Part shown: one piece after another, positions 26,625 to 36,523 of the stretch | How the letters are laid out: each line of letters opens with the position of its first letter | Numbering within the stretch: the first letter of the stretch is position 1 | NCBI GenBank assembly: GCA_017543905.1 | Contig: JAFYFC010000043.1 | Span: 1 to 64,000 of the forward strand | DNA: 64,000 nucleotides | Direction: 5' to 3' | From: Clostridia bacterium | GTDB taxonomy: Bacteria; Bacillota; Clostridia; Christensenellales; Aristaeellaceae | The notes under the pieces: generated by a model | What the model was told of the DNA's origin: nothing | Databases searched by the model: none | Seen by the model: the letters and a program-made list of their open reading frames with translations, nothing else | Translations under genes and position numbers: made by a program

Positions 26625-26663
26625 AATACAAATCGGAGGGGATTAGCCCCTCCGATTTGTATT
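26625..26663. terminator. Bidirectional hairpin between convergent genes
   Basis: A perfect 17-bp inverted repeat (AATACAAATCGGAGGGG at 26625-26641 and its complement at 26647-26663, loop ATTAG) lies between the ends of two convergent genes. A T-rich tract (CTTTTT) follows on the plus side after a short gap. Confidence 0.75.
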
Positions 26664-26693: not shown

Positions 26694-27566
26694 TCAGCGC
26701 GTTATCTCCTCCGCTATGGAGATCAGCTTGAGCTTCGCGCGGTATATTTCGTTGCGGCGCACGCCCTCTTCCTTAAGTTTCGCGCAGGCCTCGTCCAGCG
26801 TCATGCCGCCGCACAGCAGCATCGCAAGGCGCTGCTCCGGCGTCACGTCCGTTTCTTCGGACGGCTTTTCCTCGGCAGGCAGTTGCGACAGATCCATCAC
26901 TATGCAGTATTCGCCTTTTTCGGCATTCGGATTTTCGTTCAGGCGCGCAAGCACGCTTGCGACTGGTCCGCGGTCTATGCGTTCGAATTTCTTGGTCAGG
27001 TCGCAGCACACGCACACCTGCGCCTCCGGCAGCACGCTGTCTATATGCCTGAGCAGCTCGCGTGCGCGGTGCGGGGATTCGTACAAAACCACGACGCTTA
27101 TGCCGCGCGCGCGTATCTGACGCAGCTTTTCGTCCATATCGCGGCCTTCCCGCGGCAAAAACCCGTAAAACGCAAACTCCCGCGTATCAAAGCCGCTCAC
27201 CGAGAGCGCGGTTACGACCGCGCTGGGTCCGCTTACCGGTACGACGCTTATGCCCGCCTCCCACGCTGCTGCGACCAGCCCTTCGCCGGGATCGGATATG
27301 CCGGGCGTGCCCGCGTCGCAGGTGAGCGCTACGCTCAGGTTTTCCGCGAGCATCCGCTCGACTATTTCGTTTTTGCGCCCGTCCTCGTTATGGCGGTGGC
27401 AGGAGATCATAGGCTTGTGTATGCCCAGCACCTGCGTAAGCTTCATCGTGACGCGCGTATCCTCCGCAGCGATCAGATCACAGCTTTCCAGCGTCTGCCT
27501 GACGCGCGGGCTCATATCGTTCAGGTTGCCGATAGGCGTGGCGACCACATACAGTACAGGCATCAT
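26694..27566 (-). CDS. rsmI: 16S rRNA (cytidine-1402 2'-O) methyltransferase
   Basis: The 290-residue protein shows the tetrapyrrole-methylase fold of RsmI: 'LYVVATPIGNLNDMSPR' at the N-terminus, 'AAEDTRVT', 'DAGTPGISDPG' near residue 85 and 'VPVSGPSAV'. It methylates the ribose of C1402 in the ribosomal P site. The C-terminal ~40 residues form the usual small helical tail. Two adjacent ATG codons are possible starts. It is the last gene of the long minus-strand operon, 42 nt after the Rmt-like methyltransferase gene. Confidence 0.96.
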   Translation of the reverse strand: MMPVLYVVATPIGNLNDMSPRVRQTLESCDLIAAEDTRVTMKLTQVLGIHKPMISCHRHNEDGRKNEIVERMLAENLSVALTCDAGTPGISDPGEGLVAAAWEAGISVVPVSGPSAVVTALSVSGFDTREFAFYGFLPREGRDMDEKLRQIRARGISVVVLYESPHRARELLRHIDSVLPEAQVCVCCDLTKKFERIDRGPVASVLARLNENPNAEKGEYCIVMDLSQLPAEEKPSEETDVTPEQRLAMLLCGGMTLDEACAKLKEEGVRRNEIYRAKLKLISIAEEITR

Positions 27567-27608: not shown

Positions 27609-28382
27609 TCAGAGGCGCGAAACGACGTACACCAGCTCGCTGCCCGCCGTAAAGCGGTCGAGTATACGGAATTTTCCGTCCGTTTCACGCTCGAAAAACT
27701 CCGAATAATGCTTTTCCATGCCCGCGCCGCGCCCGGAAAGCGTGCGGGTCGGAAACGAGACGGCTATGTATTCGGCGTTCAGGCGCTCCATAAGCCGCAG
27801 CGCGCTGCCTTTTTCGTTGGTTTCGAGTACCGGCAGCAGCTTGAAGGCGAGCGCGAGCTTCCAGCGTTCCTCTGGCAAGCTTACATTAACGTCCGCGCAG
27901 TCGGCGCGCACGTCCCAGCCGGCCGCCTCCGCCCAGTCGTTCACGAGGCTGACCGCGCCGTTGTTTATATCCGCGCCGCGTACGCGCGGAAAGCCCGCAG
28001 CGCCCAGATACAGCGGATTTATGCCGCACGCCGCGTCGTAAACGCTGTCGGGCGTTCCCGTGAGGGACGTTATCCGCTCATACAGCGCCTGCGCGTACTC
28101 CATGCGTTCGCACGTAGACGAATGCAAACGCAGCGCGTCGCTTAACGCGCTTTCGTCGCCGTCTGCATAGCGCGCAAGACACGCCCGCGCGGATTTGAAC
28201 TCTTTGGATGTCATAAACGCGCCGGTCAGCGCGTGCAGGCGCACGCGCGCCGCCTTCTCCGCTTCGGCGGGCGTTTTGTATGCCTTGAGCTGACGCTCGA
28301 ACACCCTTTTTACCGTATCCGGACAGATATCGCGCAGGTTTTTCGCGCCGAGCAGCCTGTCAAGCGCCTCTGTTTCGGTCAT
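27609..28382 (-). CDS. RmtB/ArmA-like 16S rRNA (guanine-N7) methyltransferase
   Basis: The 257-residue protein aligns by eye along its whole length with RmtB and ArmA (FmrO family), which methylate G1405 of 16S rRNA and confer high aminoglycoside resistance. Shared blocks are 'CPDTVKRV' near residue 20, HSSTCERM (87-94), the SAM motif DAACGINPL (116-124), FKLLPVLE (180-187) and 'VSFPTRTLSGRGAGME' (208-223). Length equals that of RmtB/ArmA. Its ATG overlaps the tgt stop codon (ATGA) and it sits between tgt and rsmI, so it is built into a housekeeping RNA-modification operon rather than a transposon. Whether it acts on G1405, and whether the host is resistant, is inference. Confidence 0.85.
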   Translation of the reverse strand: MTETEALDRLLGAKNLRDICPDTVKRVFERQLKAYKTPAEAEKAARVRLHALTGAFMTSKEFKSARACLARYADGDESALSDALRLHSSTCERMEYAQALYERITSLTGTPDSVYDAACGINPLYLGAAGFPRVRGADINNGAVSLVNDWAEAAGWDVRADCADVNVSLPEERWKLALAFKLLPVLETNEKGSALRLMERLNAEYIAVSFPTRTLSGRGAGMEKHYSEFFERETDGKFRILDRFTAGSELVYVVSRL

Positions 28383-29470
28383 AACGCCTTGCCCGCCAGC
28401 TCCATCAGCCGCCCGTAAAAGCGCAGGTTGTGCGCCGTGGCGAGCCGCTGTGCGGAGGGGTCGCCCACCTTGAACAGATGCTGCAGATACGCCTTCGAGT
28501 AGCGTCTGCACAGCGCGCAGTCGCAGGTGGCGTCCGGCGGCGCCGCGTCGCGCGCGCAGGCGTCGTCCATTATATACACAAAATGATAAAACTTCCCGTC
28601 GTCACGCATCACGCCTTCGGGCATATCCTGCCCCGCGTCAAAGGCGTACAGGCGCTGATGCCGCGCCTCGCGCGTGGGTATCACGCAGTCGAACAGCTCG
28701 TAGCCCATTTTGATCAGGCGTATTATCTCCTCCGGCCGCCCCACGCCCATCGCGTATTTCACCTTGTCGTCGGGCATCGCGTCCGCGGCCATTTTAAGCA
28801 CGTCGTCCCACAGCTTTCCGTTTTCGTCGGTAGGCCAGCCGCCGAAGCCGTAGCCGTCGAAGCCTATCTCGGCAAGGCGTCTGCCGCATTCGAGCCTCAA
28901 AGCCCTGTCCGCGCCGCCCTGCACTATTCCAAACAGCAGCGGGCGCGCGCCTTTTACGTCCCTGACCAGCCTGTCGTACTCCTCGCGGCAGCGTCTGCCC
29001 CATTTTACGGTAAGCTCCACGCTGCGCCTTTGCTCCTCGTAGGAGTCGTTCGGGTGCGTGCACAGATCCAGCGCCATCATTATGTCGCTGCGGTACATGA
29101 ACTGCGCCTGTATGCACTTTTCCGGCGTATAGTGCAGCTTTTCCGCGCTCATGTCCGGCCGGAACAGGATTTCCTTTTCGCGTATCTCGCCGTATGCGGC
29201 GTTTTCCCGTATCATCGAATACAGCTGAAATCCGCCTGAATCCGTAAGTATCGCGCCTGACCAGCCCGAAAACTTATGCAGTCCGCCCAAAGCCTTTATA
29301 AGCTTCGCGCCGGGCTTGGTGTACATGTGCCACGTATTCATTTCAAGGCCGGAAAGCCCCGCGTCCGCGACGTCCTCTACGTCCGCGGCGCGGACGGCGG
29401 CATACGTCGCATCCGGAAAAAACGCGGGCAGCTTTACTTCTCCGCTGGGGAGGCTCAGAGCTTTTACCAC
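28379..29470 (-). CDS. tgt: tRNA-guanine (queuine) transglycosylase
   Basis: The 363-residue protein is a somewhat divergent TGT: 'GAILTDSGGFQ' carries the catalytic Asp region, 'YAMGVGRPEEI' follows, 'FDCVIPTREARHQRLY' contains the nucleophilic Asp, and 'CDCALCRRYSKAYLQHLF' with a later His forms the zinc site. It inserts preQ1/queuine into the wobble position of tRNAs for Asn, Asp, His and Tyr. The start is a GTG at 29470, one nucleotide after the rsmH stop codon (TAA-A-GTG), with GAGGGC upstream; the N-terminus is about 20 residues shorter than usual. Confidence 0.9.
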   Translation of the reverse strand: MVKALSLPSGEVKLPAFFPDATYAAVRAADVEDVADAGLSGLEMNTWHMYTKPGAKLIKALGGLHKFSGWSGAILTDSGGFQLYSMIRENAAYGEIREKEILFRPDMSAEKLHYTPEKCIQAQFMYRSDIMMALDLCTHPNDSYEEQRRSVELTVKWGRRCREEYDRLVRDVKGARPLLFGIVQGGADRALRLECGRRLAEIGFDGYGFGGWPTDENGKLWDDVLKMAADAMPDDKVKYAMGVGRPEEIIRLIKMGYELFDCVIPTREARHQRLYAFDAGQDMPEGVMRDDGKFYHFVYIMDDACARDAAPPDATCDCALCRRYSKAYLQHLFKVGDPSAQRLATAHNLRFYGRLMELAGKAL

Positions 29471-29471
29471 T

Positions 29472-30416
29472 TTATATGCCCTCGCAGATCCTTAAAAGCG
29501 CGCTGCGCGCTCTGGGGTTCTCGTTCAGCTCGGTCTCGCCCGCCGTGATCGGCTTGTTCGTTATCAATCTGACCGCAGGCTTTTTGCCGCACACGCATAC
29601 GGGAAAGCTCTTCGGGCAGGTACACGGATACGCGAGCGCCTTGAACGTGTTTTTTACTATTCTGTCCTCCAGCGAGTGAAACGCGATCACGCAGAAGCGG
29701 CCGCCGGGCTTGAGCAGGGACGCTATGTCCCTAAGCGCCCTTTCCAGCGGCTCGAGCTCGTCGTTCACCGCGATCCTGAGCGCCTGAAACGTGCGTCTTG
29801 CGGGATGCGAGCCGTCCTTCGCGCGCAGCTTTTTGGGTATCGCGGCGTCTATCACGTCTACAAGCTGCGCCGTGGTGAGGATGGGCTGCGCTTTCCTTCT
29901 GTCGCAGATCACGCGCGCAATCTGCGCCGCCCAGTTCTCCTCGCCGTAAAGCGTTATGATGCGCGCAAGCTCGCTCTGGGAATACGTGTTCACGATATCC
30001 GCTGCGGTAAGATGCGCGCTTTTGTCCATGCGCATGTCGAGCGGGAAATCCCCGTGATAAGAAAAACCCCGTCCGCCCTCGTCAAGCTGATGGGATGACA
30101 CGCCGAGATCCAGCAGCGCGCCGTCCAGACGCGCCGCGCCGAGTTCGGTAAGCAGCGCCTTCGCGTCGTGAAAATTCCCGCGCACGGCAGTGAACCTGTC
30201 TGAAAGGCCGCTTTCCTCTATACGCCGCGAGGCGGCTTCGATCGCTTCGCCGTCTCTGTCTATGCCGTACAGATGCCCGCGCGTCAAATGCGCAAGCACC
30301 GCGCACGCGTGCCCTCCGCCGCCCAGCGTGCCGTCCAGATACGTGCCGTCCGGTTTTATCGCAAGCCCGTTTATGCACTCGTCCAGCAGCACCGGACGGT
30401 GGTAGAATTCGCTCAT
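29472..30416 (-). CDS. rsmH: 16S rRNA (cytosine-1402 N4) methyltransferase
   Basis: The 314-residue protein is a typical RsmH/MraW: 'EFYHRPVLLDECINGL', the SAM site 'DGTLGGGGH', 'LLDLGVSSHQLDEGGRGFSY', 'LDMRMD' and 'FQALRIAVNDELEPLE'. It adds the N4-methyl group to C1402, the same nucleotide that RsmI modifies, and both genes lie in this operon. The ATG at 30416 overlaps the aminotransferase stop codon by 4 nt; the reading frame continues further upstream but that part has no family similarity. Unusually it is not next to division genes (mraZ, ftsL). Confidence 0.96.
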   Translation of the reverse strand: MSEFYHRPVLLDECINGLAIKPDGTYLDGTLGGGGHACAVLAHLTRGHLYGIDRDGEAIEAASRRIEESGLSDRFTAVRGNFHDAKALLTELGAARLDGALLDLGVSSHQLDEGGRGFSYHGDFPLDMRMDKSAHLTAADIVNTYSQSELARIITLYGEENWAAQIARVICDRRKAQPILTTAQLVDVIDAAIPKKLRAKDGSHPARRTFQALRIAVNDELEPLERALRDIASLLKPGGRFCVIAFHSLEDRIVKNTFKALAYPCTCPKSFPVCVCGKKPAVRLITNKPITAGETELNENPRARSALLRICEGI

Positions 30417-31252
30417 ATGTCGGTCGCTTTTACGAAGCGGCCCCACACGCCGTCGCGCAGCGCCTCGAAGCGCGCGCTGTCGCGTCCGCCCGCGGCTATG
30501 CCGTCCACGCTCGTCACGCGGTGAATAAACGACGTTGAAGAGGTGGTGAATATCTCGTCCGCCTCCATAAGCTCGCGTACGTCGTAGGCGCGTTCGACGA
30601 CCTGAATACCGAGATGTCCGCACACCTCGAACAGATGCGAGCGCGCGATGCCCGCGAGTATCAGATTGTCCGCGGGCGCCGAGATCAGGCATCCGTCCTT
30701 CAGTATGTGCACGTTGCTCTTCGAGCACTCGGTCACGCGCCCGTTCCTGTGCAGTATCGCCTCGTAGCAGCCGCGCTCCCTGGCGGCCTGCATGGCCATT
30801 ACCGAAGGGATGAGGTTGAGCGTTTTTATGTTGCAGTGCAGAAAGCGCGTATCCTCCCGCGTTATGCACCTGACCTGCTCGCTGAGATCGGGGAACGTAT
30901 AGGGCGTGATCATCATCATAAGATTGGCGTGCCCCTCCGGAAAGGGATGCGCGCGCCGCGCGGTGCCGCGGGAAACCTGCCAGTACAGCACGTTGTCGCC
31001 CGTGTCCATCAGGGCCACCATGCGCTTAAGCTCGCATTCCAACGTCTGCTTGTCCATGGGAACGGTTATGCTCAGATAAGCCGCGCTCCTGTACAGCCGG
31101 TCGATGTGCGCATCCAGCGCGTAGATTATACCGTTGCGCGTGGGAGTCGCCTCGTATACGCCGTCGCCGTAGTACACCGCGCGATCCAGCATCGGTATCT
31201 TCATTTCCTCGAGGGGACCGTATTCACCGTTATAATATCCTATCGCCTGCAT
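30413..31252 (-). CDS. Class IV aminotransferase, D-amino acid aminotransferase-like
   Basis: The 279-residue PLP enzyme has the class IV pattern: 'DRAVYYGDGVYEATPTRNG' near residue 22, 'LHCNIKTLNLIPSVMAMQAA' with the Schiff-base lysine near residue 141, and 'GRVTECSKSNVHIL' near residue 165. It is closest to D-alanine aminotransferases, which provide D-Glu and D-Ala for the cell wall, but a branched-chain enzyme cannot be excluded. AGAGGC precedes the ATG. It lies 17 nt after nfnB and overlaps rsmH by 4 nt. Confidence 0.88.
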   Translation of the reverse strand: MQAIGYYNGEYGPLEEMKIPMLDRAVYYGDGVYEATPTRNGIIYALDAHIDRLYRSAAYLSITVPMDKQTLECELKRMVALMDTGDNVLYWQVSRGTARRAHPFPEGHANLMMMITPYTFPDLSEQVRCITREDTRFLHCNIKTLNLIPSVMAMQAARERGCYEAILHRNGRVTECSKSNVHILKDGCLISAPADNLILAGIARSHLFEVCGHLGIQVVERAYDVRELMEADEIFTTSSTSFIHRVTSVDGIAAGGRDSARFEALRDGVWGRFVKATDI

Positions 31253-34053: not shown

Positions 34054-35385
34054 TCATTCGATATCCATTATTATCACCGCGTCGGAGATCGCGCGGCCGT
34101 CCTTGTAGGGCTTGTTTATCACCTTTTCAAACCACGTGAGCATGGTGCTTTCGCCGCCGTCGAGGTTGTAGGCGCGCGTGCAGCCGAGGCTCTCCATAAG
34201 CTCCGCCAGATTGCCCAGCGGCAGCCCGCGCGAGGCCAGAGAGCGGCCGTCCGCGGTGACCAGACAGTAATGTCCCGGCTCGAAATAGCCTATCACTGTG
34301 CGGGGATTTCGGCCGTGTATGCCGTCGAAGGCGTTAAACACCGTATACGCCTTGCCGTTCTCGTCCAGAAGCTGCGGACCGAAGCACCACGCCTGATACG
34401 CGCCGTTCGCGGTGAGCGTTTCGACGTCCCACGTGTTCGCGGGGTATGTCACCATCGTGCCGTCCCAGTTTATAACGCACGCGTCGAAGCGCGAAAGGTT
34501 GCTGCGGTAAAGCTCGCCGTTTCTGATCATGATGCCGGAGTGGGTGCTGTAGAAGTCCCCGTTCACGGCTACGACGCAGCCCGTGCGCTTTGCGATACTG
34601 TACAGCCACTCGCCTATGCCCGTGCCGTAGGTGTCGCGCGCGAGGCGCGTCTGGAAGCACGCGATGTCCGCCACGTAAATATCCGTAAGATAGTATATGC
34701 AGTCGTAGGTGTCGCCCACGAACTCGTAGGTGTACGTGTTCGTCGTGACCGTTACGTTAAGGTTTTTGCTCTGGTAGAAGTACCTTCCGTTTTCACCGTC
34801 CTCGCGGATCACCTCGCCGTCAGTGAACTTGCCTGCAAACTTGCTGCGGAACACGCCCACCGGATCAGGCGTGGGTACGGGCGTGGGTGAAGGCGTGGGC
34901 GTAGGCACAGGCGTAGGTGTGGGTGTGGGTGTCGGAGTAGGTGTCGGGGTCGGCGTCGGTGTAGGCGTCGGCGTCGGCTCGGTTGATACCTCCGCGCCGT
35001 CTGCGTTTAAAGCCGTTCCCGTCTGCGCGTCCGTGCCGTCGTCCGGCGCGGGAGTATGAGACAACGGTTCGTAAGAGGGAGACGGCTCAGCCGTCTCCTC
35101 CGGCGTCGGTTCAGGTGTCGGCACTGGCGTCGACGTCGGCACAGGCGTTGGAGTCAGCGTCGGCGTAGGCACAGGCGTCGGGTCGGGCGTGAGCTCCGGT
35201 TCAGTTGTATGCTGTGCCGTCTGAACCCCATACGCCGCGCCCGGCCGCGTGATTATCACGTTTTCGGACTTCAGGCGCGTGGGCTTCACGTGGTGAAAAT
35301 ACGCGAACACCACCAGCACTATGCCGGTAAGCAGTATATCCAGTATTATGACGAGCCACAGGGGCTTCGGGCGTTTTTTGAGCAT
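34054..35385 (-). CDS. Membrane-anchored phosphodiester glycosidase (NAGPA-type), paralogue 2
   Basis: The 443-residue protein has a short basic cytosolic start, one membrane helix (~8-28), then a long Pro/Thr linker (about residues 60-185, mostly Thr-Pro dipeptides) and a C-terminal phosphodiester glycosidase domain (~190-443; PF09992). Family marks are '[22 protein letters not shown]', '[19 protein letters not shown]' and '[14 protein letters not shown]' near the end. Related domains cleave GlcNAc-1-phosphodiester sugars, so action on wall or capsule polymers is plausible. The catalytic domain is closely similar to the gene just upstream; the pair is a tandem duplication. Confidence 0.88.
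34866..34983. repeat. Degenerate hexanucleotide repeat encoding a Thr-Pro linker
   Basis: On the plus strand units of the type GGTGTG/GGCGTC/GGTGTA are repeated about twenty times; on the coding (minus) strand they read as alternating Thr and Pro codons of the linker. The third codon positions vary, so it is not a perfect microsatellite, but length change by recombination is likely. A weaker Thr-Pro tract lies at 35110-35200. Confidence 0.75.
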
Positions 35386-35404
35386 TCCGGTCTCCGTTTC
35401 CCGC

Positions 35405-36523
35405 TCAGGCGTCCACGTCCACTATCATGACGGCGTCCGAAATCTTGCGCCCGTCCTTGGAGGGCTCGTTTATCACCCTGTCCCCCCAGGTGAGCATAGT
35501 GGATTCGCCTCCGTCGAGATTGTACGCCTGCACGCAGCCTATATCGCTCATAAGCTGCGCCAGCGCCTCGAACGTGATGCCCCGCGAGGTCTCCGAGCGT
35601 CCGTCCACAGTTACGAAGCAGTAATGTCCCGGCTCGAAATAGCCTATCGCGGTACGCGGGTTTTTCTTTTTGACTGCGTTGGTGGCGTTGAAGCTTTTGC
35701 AGGGACGGCCGTTTTCGTCAAGCAGCTCGGGTCCGAAGGACCACGCCTGATACGCGCCGTTTTTAACCAGCGTCGCGCTGTCCCATTCCTTGCTCTGGTA
35801 AGTGAGCATCGTGCCGTCCCAGTTGATAACGCACGCGTCGAAGGTGGAGTGCTTGCTGCGGTACATGACGCCGTTTCTGATGACGACGCCGTTTTGACGG
35901 TTGCCGTAATAGTCGCCGTTTATCGCGACCACCGCGTTCGTGCGCGCGGCCATGCTCTGTGTCCACTCGTAAAAGCCGCTGCCGTACTGATCCTGCGCAA
36001 AGCAGGTCTGGAAGCAGTTTATGTTGCTTATATATATGTCCGTTATGTAATACGTGCATTCGTAGACCGACGCGCCGTTTCCGAACGTGAGCGTGTCTTT
36101 GGTTACGGCTATGTTTAGATTCTTGCTCTGATAGCGGTACGTGCCGTCCTCGCCGTCTGCGCGTATCACCTCGCCCTGCGTGAACTTGTCTGCAAATTTG
36201 TTTGCGAACACTCCGGGCGGGTCAGGCTCGGGCTCGGGCGTCTGAGTCGGTTCGGGGGTGCGCTCGGGGCTCGGCGTCTCCTGCAGCGTAGGCGTTTCCT
36301 CCGGCTGGGCCGTGGAAGCGGGCGTCAGAGTTGCCTCAGGCGCGGGCGTTTCCTGCGCGGAGACGGTCGCGGGCGCGGTCGGCCGCGCGATAATTATGTT
36401 TTCAGATTCCATGCGGCTGGGTCTTACGTGGTGAAAATATGCAAACACCACCAGCACTATGCCGGTAAGCAGTATATCCAGTATTATAACGAGCCACAGA
36501 GGCTTCGGGCGTTGTTTGAGCAT
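35405..36523 (-). CDS. Membrane-anchored phosphodiester glycosidase (NAGPA-type), paralogue 1
   Basis: The 372-residue protein repeats the layout of its neighbour: nearly identical N-terminal membrane anchor ('[20 protein letters not shown]'), a shorter Thr/Pro/Glu linker (~45-105) and the phosphodiester glycosidase domain (~110-372) with '[20 protein letters not shown]', '[19 protein letters not shown]' and '[16 protein letters not shown]'. GGGAGGAAC precedes the ATG. It is the first gene of a minus-strand run of ten closely spaced genes ending with rsmI. Likely acts outside the cell on a sugar phosphodiester; substrate unknown. Confidence 0.88.

Follow-up and report, generated by a model that had tools for sequence, protein, structure and literature searches.

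A chromosomal rmt gene paired with a divergent tRNA-guanine transglycosylase in rumen and gut Clostridia, a probable source of the plasmid genes rmtG and rmtD

The stretch of Clostridia DNA analysed here (64,000 nucleotides, referred to below as the window) carries a chromosomal member of the Rmt family of 16S rRNA methyltransferases, which forms a two-gene unit with a divergent second paralogue of tRNA-guanine transglycosylase (Tgt2). Our overall reading, to which we give a probability of about 80%, is that this tgt2-rmt unit serves in the modification of the ribosomal decoding site, and that operons of its kind are the source of the plasmid-borne resistance genes rmtG and rmtD. The Rmt enzyme family is already known, and the origin of its acquired members has usually been sought in aminoglycoside-producing actinomycetes (PMC12406665, PMC9311965). 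A literature search, with most subscription papers beyond its reach, returned no match for a chromosomal reservoir with an identifiable operon, for captured-operon evidence or for the coupling with Tgt2, and an earlier description is possible.

The methyltransferase and its operon

The rmt gene (Table 1) had been singled out from the DNA letters by an original prediction, as an open reading frame with four sequence blocks of the acquired G1405 methyltransferases and an ATGA overlap with tgt. Translation confirms both, with HSSTCERM at residues 87-94, DAACGINPL at 116-124, FKLLPVLE at 180-187, SFPTRTLSGRG at 209-219, and the rmt ATG overlapping the tgt stop at 28382-28379. The assignment to the Rmt (G1405) family is upheld by profile, fold and tree: the protein scores 260.3 bits against NF000466, the general Rmt equivalog of NCBIfam (cut-off 250), its best named subfamily is RmtF (NF000113, 263 bits) and it matches Pfam FmrO, which is named after an actinomycete member, at 2.4e-40. 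Among sequences with solved structures the scores decrease in the order RmtF, RmtB, RmtC, Sgm and ArmA (RmtF 6pi9, 2e-75; RmtB 3frh, 1e-54), with about 51% identity to RmtF over a full-length alignment and with a like fold and SAM motif, and 41% identity to RmtB.

Table 1. Features of the rmt locus and its surroundings in the window
Feature	Position	Strand	Evidence
rmt, Rmt-family 16S rRNA (guanine-1405-N7)-methyltransferase, 257 aa	27609..28382	-	profile, PDB and fold matches
tgt2, divergent second tRNA-guanine transglycosylase paralogue	28379..29470	-	TIGR00430 305.6 bits; separate clade 100/100
Tgt2 signature GYGFGGWP, base-pocket loop; W212 and P213 correspond to Z. mobilis Tgt 231/232	28833..28855	-	pattern and alignment
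rsmH, 16S rRNA m4C1402 methyltransferase, ancestral left neighbour	29472..30419	-	Pfam Methyltransf_5/MraW 2e-94; single copy
rsmI, 16S rRNA Cm1402 methyltransferase, ancestral right neighbour	26694..27566	-	TIGR00096 225 bits, cut-off 167.9; single copy
aminotransferase-like gene (named by eye), upstream of rsmH	30413..31252	-	ORF
perfect 17-nt inverted repeat, likely transcription terminator at operon end	26625..26663	.	repeat scan

An AlphaFold model of the protein, built with 25 related sequences, has a pLDDT of 93.9, and Foldseek matches it to RmtF 6pi9 (TM 0.89, 50% identity) and RmtB 3frh (TM 0.88-0.94) with rmsd values of 1.7-2.4 A (1.7 A for RmtB), so that the N-terminal helical rRNA-binding domain and the Rossmann SAM domain of these enzymes are both present along the full-length alignment. 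The actinomycete enzymes of the Sgm/Grm type (PDB 3lcu/3lcv) have the fold in common with the window protein (TM 0.85) but only ~27% identity (93 bits, against 257 for RmtF). In an alignment of 36 sequences (including ArmA, RmtB, RmtC, RmtE and RmtF), all the invariant residues of the family (H87, S89, R93, D116, C119, P123, D138, P211, G217 and E249) are found in the window protein, as are the near-invariant D164 and K181. The gene is present as a single copy in the host genome. There is no step in the GC content profile across the locus, no striking flanking repeat and no visible mobile element, as the original prediction had it; instead of being carried on a plasmid, transposon or integron, like the acquired 16S-RMTases, the gene lies in a chromosomal operon that is kept across genera.

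The gene order throughout the host family is rsmH-tgt-rmt-rsmI. For 81 non-redundant chromosomal Rmt loci the upstream sequence is available; a tgt gene directly precedes rmt in 76 of these, in Chloroflexota and Armatimonadota too, while rsmI is found just downstream of rmt in 55 of 78 chromosomal loci and just upstream of tgt in several others. In Rmt-free genomes (G001, G002, G163, G013, G032 and G025) rsmH and rsmI are directly adjacent, and at such empty sites in congeners (L246, L247) relatives of the aminotransferase-like gene (68-71% identity) adjoin rsmH upstream, as in the window. Since rsmH and rsmI are single-copy genes, and adjacent in the relatives that have no Rmt, tgt2-rmt is a unit placed exactly between two host genes; that the rsmH and rsmI of the window could be extra copies was rejected on the same single-copy count. 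The synteny in related Clostridia, a proposed check, holds within the family, but not in two members of the host's own genus (G001 and G002), where rmt is absent and its would-be neighbours adjoin. Similarly, the earlier description of the locus as a housekeeping operon is right for rsmH and rsmI and wrong for the adjoining tgt, which is the Tgt2 paralogue (the canonical, housekeeping tgt is on another contig), and rmt itself is missing from most genomes of the family. Genus g29 (L056, L057 and L058) shows a second location of the unit within the family, with a divergent tgt2-rmt pair apart from rsmH and rsmI, which adjoin elsewhere in G072 (L249). Elsewhere in the window, at 34054-36523, a pair of paralogous proteins (443 and 372 aa) is encoded side by side; their N-termini are near-identical, their linkers are long and of the TPTPTP/PEPTPE type, and they look like a tandem duplication.

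Rmt was found in 69 of the 308 genomes of the host family, spread over 19 of its 50 genera, and is absent from 239. It is rare outside the family, with 8 of 297 genomes in the order, 3 of 291 in the class and 7 of 299 in the phylum, counts in which the host genome figures and, for the order, another three genomes of the family. The compared genomes are largely metagenome-assembled, and chimeric binning, which is possible for a single MAG, is unlikely across dozens of independent ones. An alignment-based scan of named genomes returned 63 Rmt loci (a single-sequence query matched nothing), mostly from rumen and gut Clostridia MAGs whose titles give buffalo, sheep, goat, roe deer and chicken as sources, several of them Candidatus genera named after Christensenella; the other matches are in Anaerolineaceae, Ktedonobacterales, one Chthonomonas MAG and one archaeal MAG. 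A Parvarchaeota MAG has a distantly Rmt-like gene (L136 1433-1975), on a contig without Tgt2, which may represent a separate branch or result from a binning error. No Rmt was found in viral contigs, and a phage-borne origin was rejected, the only phage-labelled matches being two short contig records of an ArmA-like gene (Acinetobacter phage).

A divergent transglycosylase beside rmt

Two tgt genes are found in the host genome, namely the one of the window and a canonical copy on contig 19 that is 38% identical to it, and the 24 Rmt-free genomes examined all carry the canonical kind only. On the profile of the canonical enzyme of the queuosine pathway (TIGR00430, cut-off 306.75) the window Tgt2 falls narrowly short, while canonical proteins reach 493-533 bits (533 for the host's own copy); the Tgt2 of the rmtB2 plasmid block narrowly passes, with 317.7 bits, so the score alone does not part the two kinds, which the tree does, with a split at 100/100.

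The two enzymes have a common fold (TM 0.85), and Tgt2 retains the catalytic Asp102 and Asp280, the zinc ligands, the RNA-binding Arg286 and Arg289, as well as Asp156 and Gln203 (numbering of Z. mobilis Tgt, assigned by motif and alignment). The difference lies in the base pocket. In canonical Tgt the peptide between residues 231 and 232 (Leu-Ala or Leu-Ser) flips, the NH of 232 reading the guanine N7 via a water molecule and the carbonyl of 231 reading preQ1, with Glu235 as the partner of this switch (PMC3660597). Trp-Pro occupies these positions in all 78 Tgt2 sequences compared, which come from plasmids as well as from three phyla, against Leu-Ser in 19 of 19 canonical ones, and Glu235 is kept in only six of the 78, among them the window protein. 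A proline at 232 has no NH, and therefore the canonical switch between preQ1 and guanine cannot operate in the same way in Tgt2, whose pocket residues suggest that it may read a different base.

Captured blocks on clinical plasmids

When plasmids were searched with Tgt2, it turned up next to acquired rmt genes. Plasmid pKP13f (L138 8063-11129) carries rsmH, tgt2, rmtG and the 5' part of rsmI (its first 79 codons), in which RsmH, Tgt2 and the 79-aa start of RsmI are up to 78%, 83% and 85% identical, respectively, to genes of the host family. The Kp13 paper mentions a 'putative tRNA ribosyltransferase' upstream of rmtG, in passages that name no source (PMC3904158). The rmtD1 plasmid 6411TF carries the 3' end of rsmH, of whose product 31 aa remain, followed by a complete tgt2 and rmtD1. 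Both blocks have the gene order of the window and a Tgt2 67-71% identical to that of the window; they differ from it in lying on conjugative plasmids near IS91/IS26, and their Rmt proteins, only 38-39% identical to that of the window, are closer to those of other genera of the family. Among the genomes compared, none comes closer to the plasmid blocks than ~85%, a value reached by the short RsmI piece.

The other acquired genes keep less of this arrangement. In the rmtB2 block of Providencia (L140 5787-10748) the order is corA, tgt2, metallophosphoesterase gene, rmtB2; tgt2 (62% identical) is again upstream, but the metallophosphoesterase gene separates it from rmtB2, unlike in the window, and, with a gene order different from that of the family studied here, this block may have come from another lineage. 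The rmtE2 gene lies downstream of a truncated tgt2, next to an IS91 transposase, and another rmtE plasmid has a tgt2 piece of at least 24 aa in the short stretch read. IS91-type transposases are near the rmtG, rmtB2 and rmtE2 blocks. Beside the plasmid-borne rmtF no tgt2 was found, in contrast to the chromosomal gene of the window with tgt2 upstream; its neighbours are aac(6')-Ib and flanking rmt fragments. These fragments (L069, 2799-2957 and 3768-3836) are an rmt-like N-terminal piece upstream and a C-terminal one downstream, which suggests a duplicated or chimeric capture.

The phylogeny that had been proposed as a check places the window Rmt inside the clade that holds the plasmid RmtB, RmtD, RmtF and RmtG, the host family and these enzymes grouping at 93/99 and 100/98. 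Whether the tree is built from Rmt or, separately, from Tgt2, the RmtD1 and RmtG blocks fall inside the host family, near genera g17, g18 and g32, whereas RmtB and its Tgt2 are at the family edge in both trees. RmtF is inside the family with weak support, the position of RmtB within or beside it being weakly supported too, RmtE2 groups with Clostridia outside the core clade of the family (L044, L061 and L063), and ArmA and RmtC are long branches, too distant for placement. The AU test rejects a single clade of all plasmid genes (4e-6), as well as a family core Rmt clade that excludes them (8e-5), p-values which are indicative since the groups were chosen after seeing the tree. These trees are without RmtA and RmtH, whose records were not recovered from the plasmid searches. 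With the RmtD and RmtG blocks nested in the family, and pieces of its operon on the plasmids, the idea of a reservoir form raised in the original prediction is well supported, and by these sequence relationships at least RmtD and RmtG seem to have come from the host lineage.

Proposed mechanism and alternative explanations

In the mechanism that we propose, Rmt would transfer a methyl group from SAM to N7 of G1405, which lies in helix 44 of the 16S rRNA, an activity that the protein sequence and the modelled fold make very probable. In a family of uncultured rumen and gut Clostridia, tgt2-rmt sits between the genes of two C1402 methyltransferases, and the host would probably have a natively modified decoding site and, with it, an innate defence against 4,6-disubstituted deoxystreptamine aminoglycosides; if G1405 is indeed methylated, such protection against the 4,6-linked drugs is to be expected with good, slightly lower confidence. 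Tgt2 most likely contributes a further modification to this decoding pathway, on a wobble base or on rRNA. Chromosomal blocks of this kind would then have been captured, apparently next to IS91/ISCR-type elements, giving the plasmid genes rmtG and rmtD, and related capture events probably gave rmtB, rmtE and rmtF. Both the job of Tgt2 and the mobilising element are what we infer here. No 16S gene was found in any Rmt-positive MAG searched, and G1405 is ordinary in the 16S of the Rmt-free relatives, the sole relatives with a 16S sequence seen. According to work on E. coli cited in PMC12406665, ArmA keeps RsmI from acting at C1402, and RsmF is blocked at C1407 by Sgm and RmtC. The placement of rmt with C1402 methyltransferases fits this reported cross-talk, but, because G1405 enzymes interfere with RsmF or RsmI, the co-location could also reflect regulation rather than a joint pathway.

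A gene that is accessory in its family, and whose enzyme family includes both acquired and actinomycete members, might be suspected of having been recently taken up by the host, from an aminoglycoside producer or from a clinical plasmid. We consider this extremely improbable, given that the gene order is common to dozens of species at 40-60% protein identity, that the locus shows neither a GC step nor a mobile element, that the Sgm-type enzymes are far more distant, and that it is the plasmid blocks that carry pieces of the operon, not the reverse. Additionally, the distances between Rmt proteins are closely correlated with those of rsmI, a host gene (Mantel rho 0.86), which favours a long residence of rmt, with mostly vertical descent and losses, repeated gain at the same site being a possible alternative. 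More credible, though still the less probable reading, is a housekeeping methyltransferase with no role in resistance, which would tune decoding together with RsmH, RsmI and Tgt2. The operon with the C1402 enzymes, the pairing with tgt2 across phyla, the tie to a tRNA-type enzyme and purifying selection (omega, dN/dS, of 0.10-0.37 in close pairs) are all in its favour; nevertheless, the gene is dispensable, since 239 of the 308 family genomes, and congeners of the host, do without it, and RmtD, RmtG and RmtF, to which its product is closely related, are known to confer high-level resistance (PMC9311965). Since the modification of G1405 would itself block drug binding, the two roles are in fact compatible. 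A different target (another guanine of h44, or a tRNA position handled with Tgt2) is suggested by the tRNA-modifying fold of the partner enzyme, specificity not being readable from sequence, but we regard it as quite unlikely for a protein that matches the N-terminal RNA-binding and SAM domains of Rmt over its full length and is nested among enzymes annotated as G1405-specific.

The same weighing applies to the partnership itself, where Tgt2 could be a mere hitchhiking neighbour with no functional tie to Rmt, as might be thought from the plasmid genes rmtF, rmtB1 and rmtE2 (the last with its truncated tgt2), which persist with no intact Tgt2 nearby. The chromosomal genomes make this improbable. 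The Tgt2-signature DNA pattern occurs in 67 of the 308 family genomes, every one of them Rmt-positive, and 239 genomes have neither (Fisher 4e-66, a value inflated by shared ancestry, which the test ignores); the two genomes with Rmt and without the pattern are incomplete MAGs (75% and 73% completeness). In three genomes (G045, G054 and G081) tgt2 and rmt are on different contigs and both are retained, Tgt2 is more constrained than Rmt (omega 0.05-0.17), and the same pair occurs in three phyla. This co-occurrence across 19 genera, together with the pairing in three phyla, argues for a functional coupling, and some link between Tgt2 and Rmt in the decoding pathway is probable. A more specific version is that the two form an undescribed two-enzyme system, in which Tgt2, with its pocket for position 7 of guanine rebuilt, would act at the decoding site, or on a decoding tRNA, specifically because G1405 is N7-methylated (it might, for instance, insert a new 7-deazaguanine or handle N7-methylguanine); this we put forward tentatively, as rather unlikely in that exact form.

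The preferred reading, of a chromosomal decoding-site modification unit from which plasmid genes were captured, points to uncultured rumen and gut bacteria as the source of plasmid enzymes that give immunity to gentamicin-type drugs. Because the plasmid blocks keep the neighbours of an operon of rumen and gut Clostridia, the question of where RmtG and RmtD, at least, came from can be tied to a genomic location and put to the test. The calls of rmtG, rmtD and rmtF in Hadza gut metagenomes, which their authors found hard to explain (PMC11959905), may be reads from ordinary chromosomal rmt genes of commensals. Finally, a plasmid gene that is half of a conserved pair opens a route to the purpose of the modification and, should the two-enzyme system exist, the acquired resistance genes would represent half of an ancient system for modifying decoding.
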